The notes under the pieces: generated by a model
What the model was told of the DNA's origin: nothing
The model's input: the letters and a program-made list of their open reading frames with translations, nothing else
Databases searched by the model: none
Assembly (NCBI GenBank): GCA_031296345.1
Contig: JARLFW010000021.1
Span: 1 to 9,855 of the forward strand
Direction of reading: 5' to 3'
Length of the DNA stretch: 9,855 nucleotides
Source of the DNA: Nitrosotalea sp.
GTDB lineage: Archaea > Thermoproteota > Nitrososphaeria > Nitrososphaerales > Nitrosopumilaceae
Part shown: positions 1 through 9,855 of the stretch, in pieces
Layout of the letters: each line of letters starts with the position of its first letter
Position numbering within the stretch: the first letter of the stretch is position 1
Made by a program: the position numbers and the translations under genes

Positions 1-840
1 ACCTGATTTGTATTGTTTTCGTAGCTCGGCACCAACTTTTACTATTATTTCTGCATCTTGCCTGCTCAAGCCATTGGTTTTTTTGATCAAAAGATCTATC
101 TCTTTTTCATCAATCTTTGAACCCACACTCATATAGTCAAAGTTTAACCAGACACTCATTCTTCTTCTCATTGCAGCGTTTATTGGTTTAGTACCTGCAA
201 ATTCAGAAGATACAGGATTCATACTGATTATCAAAAAAGAATCTTTATGACGCTGAATTATTTCATTGTCTTTTTCTGTCAAAACCATGTGGCCTCGTTG
301 ATCCAAAATAGGATTAAGTCTTGTAGCAATATCTTGTTTCATCATATTTGCTTCATCTAGATACAATATTCCGCCATATTTGCTCCAAGATGTTATCAGT
401 CCATCAATCCAATTTTCTTTTCCTAGACCAACATATCTTCCGAAAAGATCAAAAACTGATGTTTGTAGACCACAGTTTATTTCCCATATTGGAAGACCCG
501 CAAGCTCTGCTACTAGGTACACAATGTGGGTTTTTCCAGTACCACTTGGTCCGATAAGTGCACATTGTTTAAAAAAAGATAAAGCTCTTGCGATTCTTTC
601 TACATATTTTTCGCCGTTATCAAGATATGGAGGCGTATCTCGGGGTATGAGTGCAGATATTTCAGGTGAGAAGGAAAACTTTTCTGGGTCAAGGTATTTT
701 TTTATATCATAATTTTTAGATAGAGCATGAGTACTTTTTTTTAAAGTGGTGACGTGTATATTCAGAGTAAAATTCTCATCATGGACTTTAGAATTTATGA
801 CTTCTTTCATCCTTTGATCAGGCGGATTTTTGATACTCAT
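1..840 (-). CDS. AAA+ ATPase, CbbQ/NorQ/MoxR (AAA_5) type, C-terminus beyond window
   Basis: This is a 280-residue partial protein; it starts at the ATG at 840 and runs off the left edge without a stop. The reading frame shows a complete AAA+ core: Walker A GPSGTGKT at residues 97-104, a GRYVGLG stretch near 134-140, Walker B ILYLDEAN at 158-165, sensor 1 SMNP at 206-209, and a likely arginine finger in MRRRM at 224-228. The order and spacing match the CbbQ/NirQ/NorQ/GvpN branch of MoxR ATPases. Members of that family act as chaperones that insert metals or remodel a target enzyme, usually with a VWA-domain partner encoded next door; any partner would lie left of the window. An unusual N-terminal extension of about 80 residues precedes the core. 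A GAGGTAAT stretch about 8-15 bases before the ATG resembles the archaeal ribosome-binding site. The family call is firm; the client is unknown. Confidence 0.85.
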   Translation of the reverse strand, partial: MSIKNPPDQRMKEVINSKVHDENFTLNIHVTTLKKSTHALSKNYDIKKYLDPEKFSFSPEISALIPRDTPPYLDNGEKYVERIARALSFFKQCALIGPSGTGKTHIVYLVAELAGLPIWEINCGLQTSVFDLFGRYVGLGKENWIDGLITSWSKYGGILYLDEANMMKQDIATRLNPILDQRGHMVLTEKDNEIIQRHKDSFLIISMNPVSSEFAGTKPINAAMRRRMSVWLNFDYMSVGSKIDEKEIDLLIKKTNGLSRQDAEIIVKVGAELRKQYKSG

Positions 841-870
841 GTACTTGGATTACCTCAAGCGCACTAAAAC

Positions 871-881
871 ACATGACATGT
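871..881. promoter_or_regulatory. Operator-like palindrome between divergent genes
   Basis: ACATGACATGT is a perfect inverted repeat with 5-base arms around one central base. It lies in the 92-base region between the divergent AAA+ ATPase gene (start 840) and the small protein gene (start 933). Its position would suit a shared operator, but so short a palindrome can arise by chance. Confidence 0.2.
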
Positions 882-932
882 ATCATTAAACTACAGACAG
901 GTGGTTAAGTTTGATAACATTTTCTCATAGGT

Positions 933-1439
933 ATGAATCTAAAAATAGAGATAAACTCTACATCATTCTCAAAATTAAAAAATGAGTCAAGTTTTGTTAA
1001 ATACAATATAGAGGCATCACTAGACGAAGTAGAAAACAGAGATTCTGGAGTGGTTCTAAAATACAGGCTTGTTCTCTTGTCAAATCCAACAAACTCCAAA
1101 ATAACCATAGAAGGTGTGGCTACACTTTATGGAGACCAGACAGAAATATCAAAGCAACTAGGTCCAGATGAGAAAAACATTCCAGTAATTTTAAATTTAA
1201 TATATCAGGAAATATTTCCACTGTTTTTCATCATGTCAAAGAGTATGCAAATACCATGTCCAGCTTATAGACTCTCACAAATGTCATATGCTCCACAGAC
1301 TGAAAAGATTGTGTCTGAATCATTACAAGAATCAAACAATATCAATGCGGTGGGATTTTCTAGTCAAAGTGAATTGCATGAGCAAGTCGAGATAATATCG
1401 CCCCTAGACCAAGGGCAGATCATTGAACAACAAATGTAA
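933..1439 (+). CDS. Small protein of unknown function, possible SecB-like fold
   Basis: This 168-residue protein has no signal peptide or membrane segment and is probably cytoplasmic. Residues 1-75 are rich in alternating hydrophobic positions typical of beta strands (for example VVLKYRLVLLS at 40-50 and KITIEGVATLYG at 56-67). A helix follows (VILNLIYQEIFPLFFIMSK, 85-103), then a loop IPCPAY at 107-112 and a polar tail of about 50 residues that looks disordered. The order of beta strands, a long helix, then a Pro-rich loop resembles SecB and archaeal SecB-like chaperones, in which the helix is followed by a PPLNL-type loop. This is a topology-level resemblance only, so I leave the product unnamed. 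The ATG at 933 has no clear Shine-Dalgarno; an AT-rich TTAAGTTT about 24 bases upstream could be a TATA box for a leaderless transcript. Confidence 0.7.
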   Translation: MNLKIEINSTSFSKLKNESSFVKYNIEASLDEVENRDSGVVLKYRLVLLSNPTNSKITIEGVATLYGDQTEISKQLGPDEKNIPVILNLIYQEIFPLFFIMSKSMQIPCPAYRLSQMSYAPQTEKIVSESLQESNNINAVGFSSQSELHEQVEIISPLDQGQIIEQQM

Positions 1440-1472
1440 GTATACAACAGATGCAAACATATCAATAAATGA

Positions 1473-1561
1473 TTTTTTAGAGAAAAATAGCCATGGTTCT
1501 AATACCAAACTTTTTTCATTTTGAAAACCCCCTATGGTAAATTTATATAAATTATAAAAAA
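1473..1561. terminator. T-rich bidirectional termination region between convergent genes
   Basis: The 127 bases between the convergent stops at 1439 and 1567 hold T-runs at 1473-1478 and 1511-1516 that could terminate the plus-strand gene. An A-run at 1556-1561, read as U-run on the minus strand, could terminate the pilin-like gene. Archaeal intrinsic termination relies mainly on such runs. A perfect AT-only palindrome of 14 bases sits at 1540-1553. No coding potential is seen here. Confidence 0.35.
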
Positions 1562-1566
1562 GCAGT

Positions 1567-2769
1567 TTATCCTTTTTGTATCTCTACTAAAATCATTGGC
1601 GTCGGAGTAGATGCCAAGATGGGAGCACCTGATGGGTATGTGGCAGGTAATGAATTATAGACAAAGTTTGCAGAATAAGCAGTTCCAAATCCTTTTGGGC
1701 CCATAGCATTCACATATCCAAGTACAGGCGGGATTGCATCTACAGAATTTGCTCTAAAAGCGGGCATAGTTGCAGTACCACAAGCCCATGCTTGCCAATA
1801 GAGTCCTTTAGTTAAGGTGATAGGTGTTCCAAATATCAGAGTTTTTACTCCTGGAGTAGTAGTTGTAAATGTGCCAACATCACTACCTGGAACTAGTGTT
1901 TGTGGATACACATTTCCGCTATCTCGATAAATTCCTACATGACATGTGGTAGGATTTGCAGCTACTACTATTTCTGCTTGGATTTTATCAATAGTTATTG
2001 TATGAGGAACAATCCAAGGAGTTGCACCCAATTTTGAGGCGGTTGAAATTATCGTACTAGAGTTAGTAGGAATTATTGCATTACCATACCAAGATAATGT
2101 TGAGCCTCTCATGAAATAATCTACTGGCTCTGACGGATTAAATCCAATAGTTTTCCAGTTGGAACCGTCACTAATCATCTTGACAATCTGATCTTGATGA
2201 GTAAGATTCATTGAGCCAGAAGGAGAGTAATATCCATCAATTGTTTGTGAAGACGTGGTAAGGATTTTTACAATATTTCCTGCAGAAACTGTGCCATCGC
2301 GTATAGTGAAAGTTTTACCAACATGCCCAACAGCGGTGGGTAAAGTTGCAGCCCTTGTAGCCAAGGTAGTGTTGAAATTGACAGTGTCTTCAGTGTATGC
2401 CAAAGTATGATCAGCAGAATAAATATTATATGCTTCAGTATTTCCCAAAGTACTTGCAGAAGTTAGAACAACATTTTGTGAAGCGGTGTTAAATAAATAT
2501 CCATTTTGTAGTGATGCTTGAAAATTTACTGTGTAACCGCTAGTTCCACTGATTCCATAATTCCACATGAAAAATGTCTCATCCCCATTATTCAAAAGCG
2601 GATAGAAAGATGGATTGGGGCCTGAAATTAAGGTGGCCTTTCCAAAACCTGTTACATTTGTAACTAGCATATTTGGAATAATATTTGAGAGAGAACCGCC
2701 ATTTGTCATATTATTTGTGACTCCAAAAAGCAGAGTGGTGTTAAAATTGGTAGGACCCGAACTTGGCAA
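1567..2769 (-). CDS. C-terminal part of a frameshifted pilin-like surface protein, with phage tail-fibre-like modules
   Basis: The frame is open from 2850 to 1567, but the first usable start is a TTG at 2769, giving 400 residues. The 27 codons upstream (2850-2770) also look like coding sequence, so I read this as the downstream part of the pilin-like gene that ends at 2811. Residues 1-105 look like an extracellular beta domain rich in N-x-S/T sequons. Residues 138-208 carry a pattern familiar from phage tail-fibre proteins: ATLPTA, then GKTFTIRDG, then QTIDGYY, then SDGSNWKTIG. Residues 216-400 resemble a tail-fibre receptor-binding sandwich: PHTITIDKI at 255-263, HVGIYRDSGNVYP at 277-289, GVKTLIF at 307-313 and KGLYWQAW at 321-328. 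There is no membrane segment here; anchoring would come from the upstream part. The module calls are from recalled family patterns and need a profile search. The true gene is probably one 560-residue protein with one base lost near 2826. Confidence 0.7.
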   Translation of the reverse strand: MPSSGPTNFNTTLLFGVTNNMTNGGSLSNIIPNMLVTNVTGFGKATLISGPNPSFYPLLNNGDETFFMWNYGISGTSGYTVNFQASLQNGYLFNTASQNVVLTSASTLGNTEAYNIYSADHTLAYTEDTVNFNTTLATRAATLPTAVGHVGKTFTIRDGTVSAGNIVKILTTSSQTIDGYYSPSGSMNLTHQDQIVKMISDGSNWKTIGFNPSEPVDYFMRGSTLSWYGNAIIPTNSSTIISTASKLGATPWIVPHTITIDKIQAEIVVAANPTTCHVGIYRDSGNVYPQTLVPGSDVGTFTTTTPGVKTLIFGTPITLTKGLYWQAWACGTATMPAFRANSVDAIPPVLGYVNAMGPKGFGTAYSANFVYNSLPATYPSGAPILASTPTPMILVEIQKG

Positions 2770-2810
2770 TGAAAATAATTGTAAATATACTGGAGATTGA
2801 CTTGCAGAGT

Positions 2811-2850
2811 TTACAAAGAACTCCTTACGTTTCCACGCATTGTAACTAGT
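2811..2850 (-). other. Apparent -1 frameshift joining the two pilin-like ORFs
   Basis: Transcribed right to left, the upstream frame reads ...CGT GGA AAC GTA AGG AGT and stops at 2811. Re-reading one A after GTA (positions 2826-2824 as AAG) gives RGNV-KEFFVN and joins the 400-residue frame, which has no stop between 2850 and 1567. Adding one A to the GTAAGGAG stretch would restore a single gene. No canonical X XXY YYZ slippery heptamer lies in register, so an indel (mutation or assembly error) is likelier than programmed frameshifting. Confidence 0.65.
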
Positions 2851-3242
2851 TTAAGGTCGTATCCTTGAGTGGATTTTGCATAAAGCGGAATACTTTGGCC
2901 TATTTTGGTAAGAGAATTTCCAGGATACACAACTTGATTAATATCATATTTTGATGTGCCCCAGGTGATATCTGTTTTATTCTGTACCCACAATCTGTTG
3001 ATAGTTATTGGAATATTTCCAGAATTTTGAACCGTGATATTGAATTTATTATTATCAACTGTTACTTTGGTAACTGAAAATTGTTCATGGTTTGTATCTG
3101 CATCAGATTGGCTTTTTGTTACAAATGCATCAGTAAAATTATTTATTAAATTCATATCATATGTAACAAAGGTTACCGCAGTTGTGAAAATTATTACAAA
3201 AAAAACAGCCCCGACTACAGTGCTTATACCCCTTCTATTCAT
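2811..3242 (-). CDS. Archaeal type IV pilin-like N-terminal module, frameshifted end
   Basis: I place the start at the ATG at 3242, giving 143 residues beginning MNRRGISTVVGAVFFVIIF; a GTG at 3266 and an ATG at 3251 are alternatives. The short basic stretch followed by RRG|ISTVVG and one hydrophobic segment is a class III signal peptide, cut after the glycine by an archaeal prepilin peptidase, leaving the hydrophobic helix for assembly into a filament or anchoring in the membrane. A beta-rich extracellular domain follows (FNITVQNSGNIPITINRLWV), ending in LKLVTMRGNV. The equivalent point in the neighbouring pilin-like protein (LVSTRGSIF) runs straight on into more protein. Here the frame goes into RSSL and stops, while the -1 frame continues KEFFVNSASQSP. 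The short C-terminus is therefore likely an artefact of a frameshift and not the real end of the gene. Confidence 0.75.
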   Translation of the reverse strand: MNRRGISTVVGAVFFVIIFTTAVTFVTYDMNLINNFTDAFVTKSQSDADTNHEQFSVTKVTVDNNKFNITVQNSGNIPITINRLWVQNKTDITWGTSKYDINQVVYPGNSLTKIGQSIPLYAKSTQGYDLKLVTMRGNVRSSL

Positions 3243-3292
3243 GATTTCCATCCCCAGAGGAATCACAAATCAATTCACAACAAGCAAGAGAA

Positions 3293-3306
3293 TTATCTAA
3301 AGATAA
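3293..3306. promoter_or_regulatory. Operator-like palindrome in the promoter of the third pilin-like gene
   Basis: TTATCTAAAGATAA has perfect 6-base arms around AA. It lies just downstream, in the minus-strand sense, of a TATA-like TTATATGG at 3318-3325, close to where transcription would be expected to begin (about 3295). A regulator bound here could block the start site. Its role is inferred from position only. Confidence 0.25.
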
Positions 3307-3421
3307 TACTGTGAATACCATATAACAAAAATAGTTTTAATCTTCGATAAAGGATTCTGGATGTCACATAAAATAATTACAAGGACAATCACTTTATAAT
3401 TTTAAACAATGAAAAGACAGG

Positions 3422-4867
3422 TCAATTGTGGAAATTTGTAAAGGTACAAGTAGTTACTCCTTTAGGCACTGTTACAGTCACTTTAGTCGCATTTGGTTGA
3501 GAATAAGTGTTATCACATGTAACACTTTGAAGTGTCCATCCTGGTGCGGGGGTCTCACCTACGGTGTATATCCCTGGGTCTACAAAGAATATCCCCGACT
3601 GACCTGATCCTGGATTTCCAAGTTGGATGGATGTTGTAATTTGAATTTCAGAACTTGTGGTATGACGTTCAGCATAGAAAAAATCAAATGGATAAACATT
3701 TCCTCGAGTGATTCCAAGTGTACTAGCTTGGGCATCCAAATTTATTGTTCCAGGAGCTCCTGCATGTACTCCTCCCAGATCCAATGCAAGTTTTTTGTTG
3801 ATGAAAACCCAAACATCGTCATCTCCCCAAAAATTAAAAGTCTCTCCGCCTTGATATGTAAATGAGCTATGGACCTCGTATGTAAAACCAAAATTATGCC
3901 ATTTCCCTTGTGCATCCTGGCCACTGTTGCCAAATAATTGATTGTCAATTGGAAAGAACGACATGTTACTGTATTTCCATGTTTGCGGAGTAGTTCCTTG
4001 TTCAATTAGTGTTATGTTCAATTGTTTATGGGCATTAATAGTAGAATTATCATGAAACCACTGGTTAAACCATCTATATCCGTTGTTAAAAGCAGATGTA
4101 GTTTGATTGTTGTATACCGGTGTACTGTCAGAACCAAGAGTGGGCATGACAATTCCAGGAATTACTCCAAATGGACAGTAGCCACATACTTTTTCAAAAT
4201 CCGGATCTGCGTAATGAGGAGCTGCCGAACCATTAAAATCGTGGATAGTGCCACTTAGGACCATATTACCATTTTTATCAAGATTTACAGTATTAGTATT
4301 ACCAGAAGTACTTACCGAAAAAGTACCTAGATCGCCATAATAAGAGAAATTACCATCAGCCTGTCTTGCTAATTTTTTGATTATCAACTGCCCATCTGCT
4401 GGGGTTCCTAGATGATGTGTGAATATGGAACCGCGAGTACTGACTAAGGAGATATCAATTGGGTCTCCTGCCCAATTATAACTTACAAGTTTGGAAAAAG
4501 TTTTACCAGGTGGAACTGACGTTGGTAGTATTCGTAAATCTATGGAATGAATTCCTTTAATTTCAATTTCGTTAACATTGAGACCATCGATGCCAGTATT
4601 TATGAAAGTAATATTGAGTTGTTTTTGTGCAGTATTATACCATTCATGCTGTGGGACGATTGCTTCTTTAATTTTATTGATGTTTGTAGAATAAGTATTA
4701 TCTAAAAGTTTTTCATTGTTGTTAAGATTATCTTTAGCCCATGAAACACCAATGACCCCAATTAATGAAATTCCCACAAGTAAAATTGCTCCACTAACTA
4801 CAGTCGATACTCCTTTTTTGTAATGATTGAAAAATCTAAATTGAGCATTTGTGTTCCACCTTCTCAT
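3422..4867 (-). CDS. Pilin-type signal protein with fibro-slime (PA14-like) adhesin domain
   Basis: I choose the ATG at 4867 (481 residues); an in-frame TTG at 4900 would add 11. Residues 17-43 form a class III signal peptide, KKG|VSTVVSG plus a hydrophobic helix, implying prepilin peptidase processing and incorporation in a pilus or membrane anchoring. Residues 55-150 match the neighbouring 148-aa pilin: YSTNINK, EWYNTAQ, LNITFINTG, then LVSTRGSIF. Residues about 204-412 are a fibro-slime domain: SGTIHDFN, PDFEKVCGYC, PGIVMPTLGSD, FNFWGDDDVWVFINKKLALD at 344-363, DLGGVHAGAPG, and PFDFFYAERHTTSSE at 393-407. The GDDDVW aspartates match the calcium-binding pair of PA14 lectin-like domains. Residues 425-481 (PGIYTVGETPAPGW, SVTCDN, TTCTFTN) look like the second half of a SpaA/Cna-B-type domain with cysteines at 451 and 474. 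Many N-x-S/T sequons suggest surface glycosylation. Its likely role is a surface or pilus-tip adhesin. Confidence 0.85.
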   Translation of the reverse strand: MRRWNTNAQFRFFNHYKKGVSTVVSGAILLVGISLIGVIGVSWAKDNLNNNEKLLDNTYSTNINKIKEAIVPQHEWYNTAQKQLNITFINTGIDGLNVNEIEIKGIHSIDLRILPTSVPPGKTFSKLVSYNWAGDPIDISLVSTRGSIFTHHLGTPADGQLIIKKLARQADGNFSYYGDLGTFSVSTSGNTNTVNLDKNGNMVLSGTIHDFNGSAAPHYADPDFEKVCGYCPFGVIPGIVMPTLGSDSTPVYNNQTTSAFNNGYRWFNQWFHDNSTINAHKQLNITLIEQGTTPQTWKYSNMSFFPIDNQLFGNSGQDAQGKWHNFGFTYEVHSSFTYQGGETFNFWGDDDVWVFINKKLALDLGGVHAGAPGTINLDAQASTLGITRGNVYPFDFFYAERHTTSSEIQITTSIQLGNPGSGQSGIFFVDPGIYTVGETPAPGWTLQSVTCDNTYSQPNATKVTVTVPKGVTTCTFTNFHN

Positions 4868-4919
4868 ATGTTTACTATGAGTAATTATCCCAAAGAACAA
4901 TAATTAACAAGTGTGAGTA

Positions 4920-4930
4920 TCACAATGTGA
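4920..4930. promoter_or_regulatory. Operator-like palindrome TCACAATGTGA
   Basis: This is a perfect inverted repeat with 5-base arms around one base. In the minus-strand sense it lies just after the TATA box at 4935-4942 and before the expected transcription start near 4912 of the fibro-slime pilin gene, a typical repressor position in archaea. A related TTACAAATGTGA occurs at 6784-6795 upstream of the TrmB-like gene. Confidence 0.3.
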
Positions 4931-4934
4931 CATA

Positions 4935-4942
4935 ATTTTATA
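4935..4942 (-). promoter_or_regulatory. TATA box of the fibro-slime pilin-like gene
   Basis: On the minus strand this reads TATAAAAT, a good archaeal TATA box. Transcription would begin about 26 bases downstream near 4912, leaving a leader of about 45 bases to the ATG at 4867. That leader has no clear Shine-Dalgarno close to the start. Confidence 0.45.
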
Positions 4943-4979
4943 TTAGAAATATAATTTCAGTTATTTTTCCAACTTGTAC

Positions 4980-5426
4980 TCATGGTGATATATTAGTGGT
5001 AATAACCGAACCTTTTGCAGTAGTTATAATAATGCTCAAAGGAATGTTACTTGTCCATCCATAAAGAATTTTTGTCGAATTTGTTTTCTGTGGGAGAATA
5101 TTCCCGTTTGCAATAGGAATATCAATAGTCTTTGTTGAATTTGTTATTTTGATATCAGTGACAGATATGCCCGTGGAGCCAACGTTATACAGCGTCACAT
5201 TGATGAATTTTGAAGGGGTATTGCCAAACCATGCATTTTCAACAACTAGTTGCTCAGAAAACTTGTTGATATCAGTGGAATAAAGCGCAGTTGTGATGGA
5301 TTTGGAGACTGAAAAATTGCTGTTTGACCACATGACTACTGCTGAGCCAAGAATCACAGTGGCTACAAGAAGTACCATTCCAGTAACTATCGAACTTATG
5401 GCTCTATGCCTAGAAAAATTCCTCAT
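4980..5426 (-). CDS. Minimal archaeal type IV pilin-like protein
   Basis: This 148-residue protein starts MRNFSRHRAISSIVTG at the ATG at 5426. HRA|ISSIVTG followed by a hydrophobic helix to about residue 33 is a class III signal peptide with alanine in place of the more usual glycine before the cut. The remainder is a small beta-rich domain: YSTDINK at 49-55, NAWFGNT at 64-70, FINVTLYNVG at 74-83, SVTDIKI at 88-94 and IITTAKGSVITT at 133-144. These blocks recur in order in residues 58-150 of the adjacent 481-aa protein, so the two are paralogues. This one ends where the larger protein moves on into its adhesin domain. It is therefore a candidate main filament subunit for the locus, with the other two as adhesive minor subunits; that division of labour is inference. 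A TTTTTAAA at 5495-5502 read on the minus strand could be its TATA box, with a leader of about 46 bases. Confidence 0.8.
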   Translation of the reverse strand: MRNFSRHRAISSIVTGMVLLVATVILGSAVVMWSNSNFSVSKSITTALYSTDINKFSEQLVVENAWFGNTPSKFINVTLYNVGSTGISVTDIKITNSTKTIDIPIANGNILPQKTNSTKILYGWTSNIPLSIIITTAKGSVITTNISP

Positions 5427-5598
5427 TCTTGAATTTTTGGTCTTTTAGTGACTAATATTGATAGATATGTCTTGTCTAAAACTAACTAGTTTACTTTAAA
5501 AACTGCCCAGATTCCTCATAAAGACATTTTTTAAAATTTAACACGTACACCGTTCAAACAATACCCAGTGTAATTTACAAATACACACATATCTTTTT

Positions 5599-5610
5599 CA
5601 TATAAAAAAC
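5599..5610 (+). promoter_or_regulatory. TATA box upstream of the two-gene hypothetical operon
   Basis: CATATAAAAAAC contains a strong TATAAAAA core at 5601-5608, centred about 21 bases before the ATG at 5625. That is slightly close for a leaderless start but still the best promoter in the region. A small inverted repeat CCAAATTTTTGG (5610-5621) lies between box and start codon. Confidence 0.45.
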
Positions 5611-5624
5611 CAAATTTTTGGCAT

Positions 5625-6113
5625 ATGTCTGCACCAGACAATACAAATCCAGACGAGTTGGCATCATCAGTAAAGGCAATGGATGATCTTGTAGAGGAAG
5701 CCATCCAGATTTATGAATTAGATAATGAAAAAACCAACTTGACAGATGAATTATACAATTCTTTAAGAACAATAACTAACTATCTAGGATTTTCAATGGA
5801 TGTTGATCCAAGATTTTTGAACTTGTCACAAGATACCAGAATAATTCTCATGCCATCTCTTGATTTACTTATTATAAAATCTAATTTTAAATCAGAGCAG
5901 AAAAGATTGGACCAACTTAGTTTAGATGAAATATCAAATATTCTAAAATTAGTGATTCCAAATATGATAAACATGGCAAGAGCAGACAGGGTTTTAAAGA
6001 ATCAAAAAATTGCATTTGTGCGTGAAGCTACAAACAGACTAAAACGACTTCCAGGTTCCAGCACAGAAGACATGATTGTAAATGATACTGCATTACATGT
6101 GGAAGGAGTATAG
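5625..6113 (+). CDS. Unrecognised acidic helical protein, first gene of a two-gene operon
   Basis: This 162-residue protein begins MSAPDNTNPDELASSVKAMD. I do not recognise it. The sequence is predicted largely helical and acidic at the N-terminus (VKAMDDLVEEAIQIYELDNE), with a hydrophobic patch (RIILMPSLDLLIIKS, 73-87) too polar-flanked for a membrane helix. A later helical stretch holds VIPNMINMARADRVLKNQK. There is no signal peptide, Cys/His metal cluster or nucleotide-binding motif. The next gene begins 20 bases after the stop on the same strand, so the two are probably co-transcribed and may act together. It is divergent from the pilin gene at 5426. It is probably a lineage-restricted archaeal protein. 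The start is supported by the upstream TATA box and absence of another nearby ATG. Confidence 0.7.
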   Translation: MSAPDNTNPDELASSVKAMDDLVEEAIQIYELDNEKTNLTDELYNSLRTITNYLGFSMDVDPRFLNLSQDTRIILMPSLDLLIIKSNFKSEQKRLDQLSLDEISNILKLVIPNMINMARADRVLKNQKIAFVREATNRLKRLPGSSTEDMIVNDTALHVEGV

Positions 6114-6133
6114 TAGAATTGAAAGAGGAGATT

Positions 6134-6655
6134 ATGCAATTTCACTCAATGGAAGATCTTCAATCGCACCTTGAAAATCAATTAAAGATTCTAAAGAAAA
6201 AATCTGAAGAATATTCTGAGGCAATAGGAGAGAAGATTCGGTTCGAAAATACAACAAATGATTCTGCCGAAATTGCAGAACTAAAAGAAAAACTTGAAGG
6301 TTCTACAGATCCAAAAAAGAAAAAATTAGTAAAGAAAAAAGATCAAGGAGCTAACTGGCACGATTTGGGCCCGATTTCATTTTATGATGGGATAGGAACA
6401 AAGGGCGAGCTTGAGATTTATTTCAAGGCGTTGGAAAAAGCAAAATCAAATATAGAAAAAATAGAGAAGATCAAAGATGCCATAGATAACCTGATTTCCA
6501 AGGGCGTCAAGAGGGAACTTGGATGTATTGCATTGCTAAATCATGACATGTCGCTTCAGGTCTGCTTTGTAAAGACTGGAAAACCAAAGACCAAATTCTC
6601 ATACAAGTCAATCTTTACCATACCAAGTGAGATTATTCATGAAATTAAAATTTGA
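6134..6655 (+). CDS. Unrecognised protein with coiled-coil N-terminal half, second gene of operon
   Basis: I choose the ATG at 6134 (173 residues) because GAGGAG at 6125-6130 lies just before it; a TTG at 6119 would add five residues. The N-terminal half is charged and heptad-like (LQSHLENQLKILKKKSEEY), consistent with a coiled coil. A very basic linker follows (DPKKKKLVKKKDQG, near residues 58-72), then a more ordered region starting ANWHDLGPISFYDGIG. A second helical stretch (ALEKAKSNIEKIEKIKDAID) precedes a C-terminal beta-like segment, ELGCIALLNHDMSLQVCFVK, ending in FTIPSEIIHEIKI. I recognise no family. The lysine-rich linker could contact nucleic acid or an acidic partner such as the protein encoded just upstream; this is speculation from charge. 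No signal peptide or membrane helix is present. Confidence 0.7.
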   Translation: MQFHSMEDLQSHLENQLKILKKKSEEYSEAIGEKIRFENTTNDSAEIAELKEKLEGSTDPKKKKLVKKKDQGANWHDLGPISFYDGIGTKGELEIYFKALEKAKSNIEKIEKIKDAIDNLISKGVKRELGCIALLNHDMSLQVCFVKTGKPKTKFSYKSIFTIPSEIIHEIKI

Positions 6656-6783
6656 TACAAGTACTATAGTCAAATCACATTCAACAATGCCCAAATAATG
6701 CAAATTTCATAAAGCATGGCTTGAATCAGAGTAGATCATAAATATTAGAAGAACAGGATTCTCAAAAATCTTGGATATATGAA

Positions 6784-6806
6784 TTACAAATGTGACGCAG
6801 TGTGAC
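6784..6806. promoter_or_regulatory. TGTGAC direct repeat upstream of the TrmB-like gene
   Basis: TGTGAC occurs at 6791-6796 and again at 6801-6806, ten bases apart (one helical turn). The first copy also forms the imperfect inverted repeat TTACAAATGTGA. The repeats end about 18 bases before a TATA-like CTTATAG at 6825-6831, a place where archaeal activators or the autoregulator could bind. The rest of the 237-base gap 6656-6892 shows nothing coding. Confidence 0.3.
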
Positions 6807-6892
6807 ATAATTAGGCACATACGACTTATAGTAATCAAAAATGAGATACAGTTATTGAAATCAAAAACTTCTCGATTTGAGGGGAGAAGGTA

Positions 6893-7765
6893 ATGGATCC
6901 ACGTTTAGAAATGAAAAATGACGAACTTCCATTATCAATCTTTGATGCAGATTCTAGTTCTGCAGTATACGAACAAAAGGTAACATGCGACAAACTAAAA
7001 AATGAACTTGCCAAATTTGGACTCACATCAAACCAAAGTAAGGTCTACATCTATTTGGGCAAATATGGATCAAAGACTGCACCCGAAGTGTGCAAGGCAT
7101 TAAAGATGCCAAGAACTGAAACATATCACCTTCTAACCACTTTACAAAACAAAGGACTAGTATCAGCAACATTTCAGCACCCTACTAGATTCTCAGCAGA
7201 GTCATTAAACAAAGCAATATGGGTTCTTGTTAACGCAGAAAAAGAACGAGTCAGCACTTTAGAAGGTCAAGAAACTGAGATCAAGAAACTGTGGGATTCC
7301 ATTCCAGAGTTTAATTCGGTTCAAGAAACTAGAGAGGATAAATTCCAAATGCTTGAAGGAGTCAATCAAATAAATAGCAAGATAAAAGAAATGATAAAAA
7401 GTGCAAACAGTGAATTTCTCATACTAGGTTCAGAAAAAGACTTTTTGAAGTTCTACCATGCAAGTCATCTTGAAAACTTTGAAAATTCGAATATTAATTT
7501 TAAATTATTATCATCTATTTCTGAAAATGCATTATACATTTTTGATGACCTGGATAGATCAAAAATTAAGAAGATTCCATCAGGAGTGCATGATAATCTT
7601 TGTTTTATGATAAAAGATGGTAAGGAAATAATACATTTTATCAAAAATGCAAATCAGGCATCACAGCAAATGAATGCAATGTGGACAGATTCAGAAACAT
7701 TGGTTTATTCAATGAAGATGCTTTTTGATTCATTTTGGTCCATATCTAAAAACATACATCTGTAA
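6893..7765 (+). CDS. TrmB-family transcriptional regulator
   Basis: This 290-residue protein starts at the ATG at 6893, preceded by the purine-rich GAGGGGAGAAGG at 6879-6890, which favours this start. Residues about 35-104 form a winged helix-turn-helix of the TrmB type: LAKFGLTSNQSKVYIYLGKY, then TAPEVCKALKMPRTETYHLL with the recognition helix in the second half, then LQNKGLVSA as the start of the wing. A helical linker (109-135) leads to a C-terminal domain with REDKFQMLEGVNQINSKIKE, SEFLILGSEKDFLKF and IFDDLDRSKIKK, consistent with the effector-binding, phospholipase-D-like half of TrmB proteins, which in characterised members binds sugars. The effector here is unknown; Thaumarchaeota carry many TrmB-like regulators outside sugar metabolism. 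Its own promoter region contains TGTGAC repeats that could be its operator. It converges with the KaiC-like gene, stops two bases apart. Confidence 0.85.
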   Translation: MDPRLEMKNDELPLSIFDADSSSAVYEQKVTCDKLKNELAKFGLTSNQSKVYIYLGKYGSKTAPEVCKALKMPRTETYHLLTTLQNKGLVSATFQHPTRFSAESLNKAIWVLVNAEKERVSTLEGQETEIKKLWDSIPEFNSVQETREDKFQMLEGVNQINSKIKEMIKSANSEFLILGSEKDFLKFYHASHLENFENSNINFKLLSSISENALYIFDDLDRSKIKKIPSGVHDNLCFMIKDGKEIIHFIKNANQASQQMNAMWTDSETLVYSMKMLFDSFWSISKNIHL

Positions 7766-7767
7766 AT

Positions 7768-8508
7768 CTACGACATGATTCTAGGATACATTATCTGAAT
7801 TCCCATCTCGTTTAATTGTATAGGGAAGATCTGTTCACTGTGTTTTGAGCCGCGCATCTTGAGAACTTGGATGGTTCGCTCCATCGAGTATTCTTTTCGT
7901 ACATGGCTGAGTAATATTACGCCTGATGAAACATACCATTCAACAGGTGACTTTTCAGATGCGTCTACTTCTGAAATCAGTATAGACATACAGTGTTGAT
8001 CTTCTAGGGCATAAACTAGTCCTTGGAGACCCTGTCGGATATAGAAATTATTCACATATTGCATGGCAAGAACTGTTAGTGAGTCCACAACAATACGTTT
8101 TGCACCTATTCTTTTGATACTGCTAAGTACAAGTTGTGTCAAATGCATGAAAGGAAGCGGTTCTCCTTGGTAAAGAGATTCATCTAATGCAATAAAGCCC
8201 TCTTTTTTCTTGAAAGGTCTTGCATCTATAATGATCATCTGTCCTTCATCTATCAATTTTTGAATGTCCCACCCAAGTGACTTGAAGTCATTTTTTATTT
8301 CAGTTGGACTTTGCGAGAGAGTTACAAATATCCCAGGTTCATCAAAATCTTTTGCGCCAGAATATAGAAATTGCATTCCAAATGTAGTCTTTCCACTGCC
8401 AGGTGGTCCAGATAATGCGATTGTCTTTCCTTGTTCAAATCCTCCCGACAATATAGAGTCAAATCCTGGAATTCCAGTCCTAACCTTAATTACATCATCA
8501 TCCATCAT
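7768..8508 (-). CDS. Single-domain KaiC/RadA-like ATPase with altered catalytic glutamates
   Basis: I choose the ATG at 8508 (246 residues) because a TATA box lies 23 bases upstream and the family's TGIPGFDSILSGGF opening follows directly; a GTG at 8601 would add 31 unconvincing residues. Walker A is GPPGSGKT at 34-41, Walker B is KRIVVDS at 137-143, and LKMRGSKHS at 216-224 is the KaiC arginine-finger-region motif. The whole sequence aligns with one KaiC CI-type domain, including FVTLSQSPTEIKND followed by SLGWD and KLIDEG. In KaiC the two residues after FVTF are the catalytic glutamate pair; here they are S65 and Q66. The protein may bind ATP with little or altered hydrolysis, acting as a nucleotide-dependent switch. 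Archaeal single-domain KaiC-like proteins are mostly uncharacterised and are often tied to signalling or to regulation of motility, so a link to the pilin locus is possible but unproven. Confidence 0.85.
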   Translation of the reverse strand: MMDDDVIKVRTGIPGFDSILSGGFEQGKTIALSGPPGSGKTTFGMQFLYSGAKDFDEPGIFVTLSQSPTEIKNDFKSLGWDIQKLIDEGQMIIIDARPFKKKEGFIALDESLYQGEPLPFMHLTQLVLSSIKRIGAKRIVVDSLTVLAMQYVNNFYIRQGLQGLVYALEDQHCMSILISEVDASEKSPVEWYVSSGVILLSHVRKEYSMERTIQVLKMRGSKHSEQIFPIQLNEMGIQIMYPRIMS

Positions 8509-8526
8509 ATGAAAATCTTGAAAATT

Positions 8527-8536
8527 GTATTTAAAG
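8527..8536 (-). promoter_or_regulatory. TATA box of the KaiC-like gene (leaderless)
   Basis: On the minus strand this reads CTTTAAATAC, centred about 23 bases before the ATG at 8508. That spacing places transcription start at or next to the start codon, implying a leaderless mRNA and supporting this start over the GTG at 8601. Confidence 0.5.
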
Positions 8537-8613
8537 AAGAGGAAGATTTTGCAAGTAACAGAATGTAACATGTAAAAATGACTAGATATGAAAAACCACA
8601 CTATACTCGATAA

Positions 8614-8625
8614 CTATTTTTAAAA
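8614..8625 (+). promoter_or_regulatory. TATA box of purK (leaderless)
   Basis: CTATTTTTAAAA is centred about 23 bases before the ATG at 8642, so purK mRNA probably starts at the start codon without a Shine-Dalgarno. It lies back to back with the KaiC-like gene's TATA box, 78 bases away on the other strand. Confidence 0.45.
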
Positions 8626-8641
8626 CAGACTATGAAACAGC

Positions 8642-9796
8642 ATGGTGACCAAAGTATTAGGAATAATAGGCGGCGGACAGCTTGGTATGATGCTAACTGA
8701 AGCAGCAAAAAATATGCCACACTACATCTCAGATGTAATAGTCCTTGATCCAGTAGAGAGTTGTCCAGCCTCCAGAGTAGGAGCAAAACAAATTGTGGCA
8801 GATTTCAAAGACAAGAACGCCATTGTGGAATTATCCCTTGAATCAGATATCATAACTTATGAAATTGAATCTGGCAATAGCGAAGTATTAGAATCATTAC
8901 ATGGCGAAGTCTCAATCAATCCGTCTCCTACCACTCTTAGAACAATTCAGGACAAATATCTCCAAAAACAATTCTTGAGTCAAAACAACATACCTGTTGC
9001 AGAGTTCAAGTCAGTTGAATCATTAGAGGATCTCAAGAAAAAGATAATAGATTTTCAATATCCCGTACTACTAAAGGCAAGACGTGACGCATATGATGGA
9101 AGGGGAAACTTTAGAATCGAAGATCACTCACAAATAGAAACTGGATATCAGCGTTTTCTTGGGCGACAGACCATGATAGAAAAATTCGTAGATTTTAAGA
9201 TGGAAGTATCAGTAATAGCATCAAGAAACATTCATGGTGAGATTGCCACTTATCCGCTTGTGGAAAACATTCACAAAGATAACATACTTGAATTTACAAT
9301 TGCTCCTGCACGAGTCAATGATAAAATTGCTTTAGATGCGGACAAAATTGCAAAAAAAACAATGGAAGTACTACATGGTGCAGGCGTATTTGGAATTGAG
9401 ATGTTTGTAACTAAAGACGATAAAGTATTGGTAAATGAAATTGCCCCACGAGTGCACAATTCGGGGCACCACACTCTACAATCAACTGAAACATCACAAT
9501 TTGAACAACATTTGAGAGCAATACTTGGATTGCCACTTGGAAGTACTAGATTAAAACACAATACAGTCATGTGTAATATTTTAGGACCAAAAGATTTCTC
9601 TGGCAGATACAAGCCAATCACACTTGAACAAAAAGAAGGAGTATATCTGAAGATGTATCATAAAGACGAGGCCAAACCTCAGAGAAAGTTAGGCCACTTT
9701 AATGTCGTAGATGAAAAGGATACAAAAAATATCGAACTTTTGATAAAAAGGGCTCAAGAAATAAGAAACACTATCAAGTTCGTTCCTCAAAATTAA
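8642..9796 (+). CDS. purK: N5-carboxyaminoimidazole ribonucleotide synthase
   Basis: This 384-residue protein has the usual PurK length. PurK converts aminoimidazole ribonucleotide, ATP and bicarbonate to N5-carboxyaminoimidazole ribonucleotide in cytoplasmic de novo purine synthesis; PurE then rearranges the product. The ATP-grasp architecture is clear: GIIGGGQLGMM at 7-17 (N-terminal Rossmann part with the PurK signature), PVLLKARRDAYDGRGN at 141-156 (ATP-binding lysine and glycine loop), MIEKFVDFKMEVSVI at 178-192, and VNEIAPRVHNSGHHT at 264-278 (metal-binding Glu/Asn and substrate loop). Two positions differ from the pattern I know best: the loop usually reads GGYDGKG (here DAYDGRG), and GHWT reads GHHT. 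Both substitutions look tolerable. No purE is visible in the window. A T5 run at 9800-9804, just after the stop, may terminate transcription. The ATG at 8642 is supported by the TATA box upstream. Confidence 0.95.
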   Translation: MVTKVLGIIGGGQLGMMLTEAAKNMPHYISDVIVLDPVESCPASRVGAKQIVADFKDKNAIVELSLESDIITYEIESGNSEVLESLHGEVSINPSPTTLRTIQDKYLQKQFLSQNNIPVAEFKSVESLEDLKKKIIDFQYPVLLKARRDAYDGRGNFRIEDHSQIETGYQRFLGRQTMIEKFVDFKMEVSVIASRNIHGEIATYPLVENIHKDNILEFTIAPARVNDKIALDADKIAKKTMEVLHGAGVFGIEMFVTKDDKVLVNEIAPRVHNSGHHTLQSTETSQFEQHLRAILGLPLGSTRLKHNTVMCNILGPKDFSGRYKPITLEQKEGVYLKMYHKDEAKPQRKLGHFNVVDEKDTKNIELLIKRAQEIRNTIKFVPQN

Positions 9797-9855
9797 GACT
9801 TTTTAGATAAAGCGAAAATTCCGCCTGCGCCATATGCAACTGCAATCATTATTCT
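9793..9855 (-). CDS. C-terminal end of a possible convergent gene (partial)
   Basis: Reading inward from the right edge on the minus strand gives 20 open codons ending RIMIAVAYGAGGIFALSKKS and a TAA at 9795-9793. The Gly/Ala/Ile-rich stretch followed by a KK tail resembles a final membrane helix. It would overlap the purK stop by four bases, tail to tail, in keeping with the tight convergent packing at 7765/7768. With only 20 codons visible this remains tentative. Confidence 0.35.
   Translation of the reverse strand, partial: RIMIAVAYGAGGIFALSKKS

Follow-up and report, generated by a model that had tools for sequence, protein, structure and literature searches.

The 9,855-nucleotide stretch of a Nitrosotalea sp. 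genome analysed here (contig JARLFW010000021.1 of assembly GCA_031296345.1, positions 1 to 9,855; hereafter the window) carries on its minus strand a gene that probably encodes a modular pilin. A pilin base and an immunoglobulin (Ig)-like stalk bear a head of two phage-virion-type domains, modules b and c, orthologues bear other heads, and the head likely acts as an adhesive, pilus-borne binding tip. Comparison of sequences establishes the architecture and the variety of heads on one base, while an adhesive function at the pilus tip is our prediction. A preceding sequence-only reading, which proposed that an archaeal pilin-type surface protein had acquired viral receptor-binding modules, was largely right but missed that orthologues at this conserved locus do not all bear the same head.

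Gene structure and the frame break

All strings quoted in the sequence-only reading are present, in the order it gave, in the minus-strand frame ending at 1567 (P0001, 425 aa, 1567-2844 in the list of open reading frames (ORFs)). This downstream frame begins with an Ig-like beta-sandwich stalk (residues 7-128; 2461..2826), common to pilins with other heads. Module b, which profile and predicted fold liken to phage tailspike and baseplate adaptor domains, follows at residues 137-234 (2143..2436), and module c, a phage virion beta-sandwich of the PHROG 25864 family and likely the binding tip, occupies residues 246-425 (1570..2109). In the coding direction (b about 2436-2143, c about 2109-1570), both modules start earlier than noted. 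The pilin module is a separate open frame of 151 aa (2811..3266, minus strand), which in relatives continues into stalk and head. It opens with a class III (pilin-type) signal peptide and a hydrophobic N-terminal helix (M..NRRG/ISTVVGAVFFVIIFTT; 3171..3251, minus strand) that are kept in relatives and orthologues, and the class III signal peptide rule predicts cleavage after RRG. Its NCBIfam matches are weak (UpsA E = 3.3e-7, ArlF 4.2e-6, BasA 5e-5), all below the curated cut-offs, and Pfam returned nothing useful for this module.

In the window, the pilin and the b-c modules therefore occupy two different frames, separated by a break at 2811..2844 (minus strand) where relatives have intact copies. 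Six relatives of P0001 carry pilin, Ig-like stalk, b and c on a single chain of 561-568 aa: P0005-P0008 (561-568 aa) and P0012 (563 aa), from among 84 proteins at E ≤ 0.01, and a gene of Candidatus Nitrosotalea bavarica SBT1 (G116, record L083; 564 aa). Each of the six has, on the same chain as the pilin, an extra C-terminal domain of a kind not confined to pilus biology, and P0003 likewise spans the pilin-stalk junction, although its start is late. The gene in Ca. N. bavarica also shares the neighbours of the window gene and thus stands at the same locus. These one-frame relatives and shared neighbours indicate that the two frames of the window are one gene with a break near 2811-2844. The proposal of modules on a pilin-type protein accordingly holds as one chain in relatives, but not within a single frame of the window itself.

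Comparison of the window with the Ca. N. bavarica gene gave low ratios of nonsynonymous to synonymous substitution (dN/dS, Nei-Gojobori) in every part: pilin 0.16, stalk 0.19, module b 0.11 and module c 0.18. Both the pilin part and the downstream part are thus under protein-level selection now, or were until lately. These data would be best explained by either an error in the assembly or a break of very recent date. Two separate genes, the downstream frame having a real TTG start, are disfavoured, since relatives read through the junction and the downstream part is under purifying selection. A second head pilin is also split, in G106 (L070 6243-8805), into a short frame for the pilin and a long one for stalk and head, with a break site that differs from the window's; assembly error, decay or phase variation could account for it.

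At E ≤ 1e-10, a profile of the pilin-stalk combination matched 100 of 400 genomes of the class, in 22 of 82 genera, and many of the matching open frames are 300-1,100 aa long. Weaker matches, often frames near 590 aa, may represent another pilin family.

Virion-type modules and their cellular relatives

A phmmer search with the window frame recovered 25 proteins (P0061-P0085; E 1.1e-11 to 5.7e-3), aligned mainly over module b. We built a module b profile from the window frame and its relatives of alignment A1, 17 rows in all. It scored 60-90 bits on each of the 25, which the window search had itself supplied, and 43-50 bits on four phage-record proteins, against a best of 7.8 bits among 640 shuffled sequences. 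Two proteins of viral contig L004 that were expected to carry the module scored 7.3 and 0.3 bits and did not match. The predicted fold of module b fits a tailspike (the N-terminal part of TSP4), baseplate chains and T4 gp9, all of which we take to be adaptor or connector domains; as modelled, module b would resemble an adaptor rather than a receptor binder. The module is also found ahead of C1q/BclA-like regions.

Module c of the window matches PHROG 25864 at E = 2.7e-4. In alignment A3, each of the 11 rows matches this family at E ≤ 0.1, the strongest at 5.1e-15. Its predicted fold fits the cyanophage A4 capsid, the Bxb1 tail-tip and baseplate chains; among its relatives the labels are those of a tail fibre, a tail protein or a tail enzyme, except for one capsid chain, and in phage and viral records it sits in tail genes. 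By contrast with these profile searches, single-sequence searches with the full 425-aa frame gave no convincing Pfam or PHROG family and nothing useful in the PDB. The profile and structure comparisons that the sequence-only reading had recommended thus return virion proteins for both modules, and the recurrence of its motifs exceeds chance, for b by the margin over shuffled sequences and for c by the PHROG 25864 match. Its description of them as phage receptor-binding modules stands as far as virion proteins are matched by profile and fold, but b is adaptor-like, on the roles we presume for its counterparts, and one relative of c is a capsid protein.

Virion proteins are not the only carriers of module c. 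A profile search of a 5.8-billion protein set, in which candidate lengths were limited by the query, found 99 proteins at E ≤ 0.001 among 7,999 scored candidates, with labelled bins from Nitrososphaeria, Andersenbacteria, Syntrophomonadaceae, Falkowbacteria and Patescibacteria. When ten of these proteins were scanned, eight matched PHROG 25864 at E ≤ 0.001, four of the eight also matching a tail or baseplate family, and two (P0148 and P0087) gave no match at all; P0166 and P0170 match Mtd_N above its cut-off. Plasmids gave no match to module c. The bacteria-labelled proteins of this set speak against a purely viral make-up of the named non-archaeal relatives of c. By sequence, module c is common to virions and secreted-looking cellular proteins, "secreted" being our reading of N-termini. 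Several proteins, among them P0095, P0101 and P0118, have by sequence a signal-like start ahead of a b-like region and of module c, and may belong to a secreted fibre-like family common to several domains of life. The archaeal genomes G069, G152, G040 and G194 (L007-L010) likewise encode non-pilin proteins of secreted appearance with the b-c pair, and tail-fibre-like repeats are present in some of these. In the three genomes read, such genes stand among non-viral-looking genes.

Phylogenetic analysis of module c (29 rows: 9 pilin, 12 secreted and 8 viral) requires two changes for the pilin heads, both of them forced by the starred branches. Secreted-looking proteins surround the eight Nitrosotalea-type pilins in this tree, and P0012 forms a pair with the secreted-looking P0041. 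In a second tree, enlarged by 14 of 98 new proteins from the 5.8-billion set (four of the 14 bacteria-labelled), both pilin-head results hold, and some viral rows now fall among the cellular ones. The nesting of pilin heads among secreted-looking proteins disfavours direct capture of the head from a virus, and the modules probably did not pass straight from virus to pilin; the secreted-looking b-c proteins look like a reservoir of pilin heads. The idea of acquired viral modules survives in the phage-virion type of the domains and is qualified by the nearest relatives of c, which are secreted-looking non-pilin proteins, archaeal and in some cases bacteria-labelled. As the c trees are unrooted and their viral branches long, the direction of transfer is something that we infer.

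The same evidence gives real weight, somewhat short of an even chance, to the explanation that b and c are general cell-surface domains taken up separately by phages and archaea, in which case the phage resemblance would be silent on origin. Bins labelled Andersenbacteria, Falkowbacteria and Syntrophomonadaceae contain secreted-looking c proteins, part of which also have a b-like region; most viral rows are more distant from the archaeal c proteins than these bacteria-labelled ones are; and both the C1q/BclA-like contexts of module b and the unrooted, long-branched trees are in keeping with it. Against it, three of four bacteria-labelled proteins tested match phage tail or baseplate PHROGs (the fourth, P0148, matches none), and c sits in viral tail genes, an observation from two collections that are viral by design, with plasmids as the bacterial side.

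Different heads on one base at a conserved pilin locus

To compare heads, 61 proteins (19 ORFs from the locus, the window and 41 database proteins) were clustered by their ends with blastp at E 1e-5, and the clusters were given names of our own after sequence strings: VSG (24 proteins), GGGF (13), b-c (8), WGI (7), LamG (4) and GQWD (3), with two proteins headless. The 41 come from 53 database proteins, the other 12 (P0004, P0034, P0035, P0039-P0041, P0043, P0045, P0046, P0051, P0052, P0055) lacking a pilin start recognisable by pattern. From 34 match rows, the grouping took in those at the marker locus; the pilins elsewhere include further copies in G095, G106, G125, G139, G152, G250 and G403 and matches in G337 and G400.

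At the locus itself, the 20 copies including the window, from 18 genomes, bear b-c (2), VSG (5), WGI (7), LamG (4) or no head (2). The head differs by species: b-c in Ca. N. bavarica, VSG in Ca. N. devanaterra and WGI in N. sinensis. Past the stalk, head sequences lose resemblance to one another. Between the Ca. N. bavarica protein and four VSG orthologues, identity per 20 residues is 55-100% up to residue 260 and at most 45% thereafter, and the same drop separates P0012 (b-c) from P0056 (GGGF). The two headless pilin-stalk proteins, L081 (G250) 1919-2800 and L082 (G403) 958-1761, are each followed by an ORF of about 250-260 aa.

One LamG head was tested and matches PF13385 at 2.4e-13. For the VSG head, the phage collection gave a single record, of 642 kb. 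There the head resembles, at 38% (E = 3e-18), the C-terminus of an open frame that is fibre-like, contains collagen-like repeats and is at least 1,126 aa long; a pattern scan of IMG/VR gave no match. Together with the virion matches of b-c, this means that two head types have phage relatives.

In the stalk tree (61 rows), the b-c label requires three changes, three being forced by the starred branches, and a single b-c clade is rejected (approximately unbiased test, p = 2.3e-6): P0012 falls within the GGGF stalks and P0008 among the VSG stalks. Taken with the c trees, repeated grafting of heads would be the simplest reading of these sequences. A shufflon finds no support in the window, where positions 1440-5640 contain no direct or inverted repeats of at least 20 bases and the listed ORFs include no extra head ORF that could serve as a spare cassette.

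The locus is defined by a conserved 168-aa flanking gene (933..1439, plus strand), found in 20 of 37 genomes of the genus (22 matches). Twenty of these matches supplied the regions compared, the other two being the window's own match and an incomplete one in G337; the region of G125 is cut by a contig end, and G250 and G252, with two loci each, may be mixed bins. A pilin-stalk ORF stands in the array beside the marker in 19 of the 20 regions, and a second conserved gene on the far side of the array (5625..6113, plus strand) is present in 17 of those 19, the contig ending before it in the other two. The window and six regions share the order small pilin (148 aa, first gene of the array; 4980..5426, minus strand), fibro-slime pilin and head pilin; the rest have a shorter array in the opposite orientation. 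The fibro-slime pilin (492 aa; 3422..4900, minus strand) combines fibro-slime/PA14 and SpaA-like domains and scores 122.6 bits with TIGR02148, whose cut-off is 45. Within the subgroup of the genus to which the window belongs, this array keeps a pilin that pairs a PA14-type domain with a SpaA-like prealbumin fold. Marker matches and reading of the gene maps revealed no viral genes in the 20 regions.

Genes for type IV pilus assembly lie nearby in relatives. The assembly ATPase family PF00437 is present in six of six genomes tested, in five of them at a distance of at most 6 kb from the head pilin, and the prepilin peptidase family PF01478 in five of six. The window opens with an AAA ATPase gene (AAA_5, which we read as MoxR-like; 1..840, minus strand) that runs off the contig and in relatives leads towards a pilus ATPase cluster. 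Past it, two genomes that were read have a 516-517-aa gene, a pilin, an ATPase and a gene that we label TadC-like. The AAA ATPase and the conserved 517-aa gene (L108 219-2782) separate the pilin array from the pilus ATPase cluster.

Proposed function, alternatives and known systems

On the modular-pilin reading, the protein would be exported, and prepilin peptidase would cut its class III signal peptide. The N-terminal helix would then pack into a type IV pilus, or stay in the membrane, and the Ig-like stalk would hold the head at a distance from the cell envelope. Module b may act as an adaptor, like its phage-tail counterparts, and module c may grip a surface, cell or particle, likely via a sugar or protein ligand. 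A head swap on the constant base would change the binding target and leave pilus assembly untouched. Pilus assembly, tip position, oligomeric state, ligand and biological role are what we infer from these comparisons.

Several points weigh against this reading. Pilin membership is drawn from the predicted signal peptide, the gene context and NCBIfam matches that fall below cut-off. The predicted model is only fair (predicted local distance difference test score, pLDDT, 68; predicted template-modelling score, pTM, 0.46), and the full-length model is poor (55). The window copy, with pilin and head in different frames, may be dead or misassembled; the PF00437 matches of its genome lie on other contigs, and PF01478 was absent from a search of that genome (G000), which is 78% complete. 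Module c occurs in six of the 400 class genomes, in two on pilins and in four not. The GGGF, GQWD and WGI heads had no match in the phage collection at E 0.01, and label changes on the trees do not tell gains from losses.

A membrane-anchored surface adhesin with a pilin-type leader, never polymerised into a pilus, is unlikely, though it deserves a hearing: the pilin part is only half as large as the head (about 300 aa), and in related secreted-looking proteins an ordinary signal-like start precedes the same b-c pair. The gene, however, stands within a pilin array, with a pilus ATPase, a TadC-like gene and another pilin nearby in the two genomes read. Far less probable is a decoy or shield, also raised by the sequence-only reading, in which the head would mimic viral tips to occupy receptors. 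The b-c and VSG heads do resemble virion domains, and the head differs between close stalks, but we found no evidence for a decoy: the viral relatives are viruses of bacteria, of Halorubrum (module b) or of unassigned host, none tied to Nitrosotalea, and pilins of the same locus carry LamG and fibro-slime domains, which are ordinary adhesion-type domains. An integrated-virus remnant beside an unrelated pilin gene, the least credible explanation, can appeal to the virion-type modules and their separate frame in the window, but was rejected given single-protein orthologues at a conserved chromosomal locus among pilins, no viral genes seen there, purifying selection on both parts and, above all, the one-frame Ca. 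N. bavarica orthologue, which largely refutes it.

Beyond the modular pilin itself, we offer a more speculative idea, which we think doubtful as it stands: an evolutionary "tip exchange" in ammonia-oxidising archaea, in which phage-type tips from secreted fibre proteins have been grafted repeatedly onto a constant pilin-stalk, each species' pilus recognising another partner. If true, the pilus would be a cellular counterpart of the phage tail fibre, deciding the partners for sticking or DNA exchange, in parallel with phages that switch host through a change of tail tip.

Peptidase modules of the S74 type occur in phage tailspikes. They also figure among the bacterial modular pilins, which, in the parts of the source available to us, number more than 1,200 proteins in 264 architectures and include lectin and PA14 modules (PMC8179133); a phage-type graft on a pilin may therefore not be unique. 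These bacterial modular pilins are the closest known kind. Streptococcus sanguinis PilB and PilC, as far as the available text goes, share the foreign C-terminal domain on a pilin, the lectin and PA14 modules and the probable role of tip adhesin, but they are bacterial, and the accessible main text does not use the term archaea (PMC8179133), whereas the Nitrosotalea grafts include phage-virion-type b-c and VSG heads at one orthologous archaeal locus. The accessible part of a 2023 review likewise ties the cut-and-paste strategy to bacterial species (PMC10191384). For exchangeable pilin ends, the PilV shufflon of IncI plasmids is closest, with a constant pilin N-terminus and alternative C-terminal adhesin heads; in the portion of that paper available, a recombinase inverts cassettes within one cell (PMC9045228), whereas the Nitrosotalea heads differ between species.

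Among archaea, the Sulfolobus Ups, Aap and bindosome pilins and the type IV pili of ammonia-oxidisers have the class III signal peptide and the weak UpsA/BasA NCBIfam similarity, and phage-type C-terminal heads are not mentioned in the available parts of the sources (PMC4858521, PMC7554672). Four pilus types of unknown function are described for ammonia-oxidising archaea in the accessible text (PMC7554672), and a literature search, which left subscription papers mostly outside, found no report naming an archaeal pilin with phage-tail heads. Secreted-looking b-c proteins (P0011, P0013, P0014, P0101, P0118 and others) have the same b-c pair and are the nearest relatives of the pilin's c domain, but they bear an ordinary signal-like start in place of the pilin module; they come from archaea and from bacteria-labelled bins. 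Phage tail fibres and tailspikes, in turn, share modules b and c and a variable C-terminal tip on a conserved base; in Nitrosotalea, however, that base is a pilin, and in relatives the gene belongs to the host chromosome, close to pilus genes, and does not lie among virion genes.

Domain grafting on pilins is documented in bacteria; here it concerns an archaeal pilin with phage-virion-type tips, in one orthologous gene whose base is kept while the head changes. This natural series of head variants could serve to study recognition by archaeal pili, and it suggests that phage-type tips are exchangeable adhesion modules common to virions and cells.
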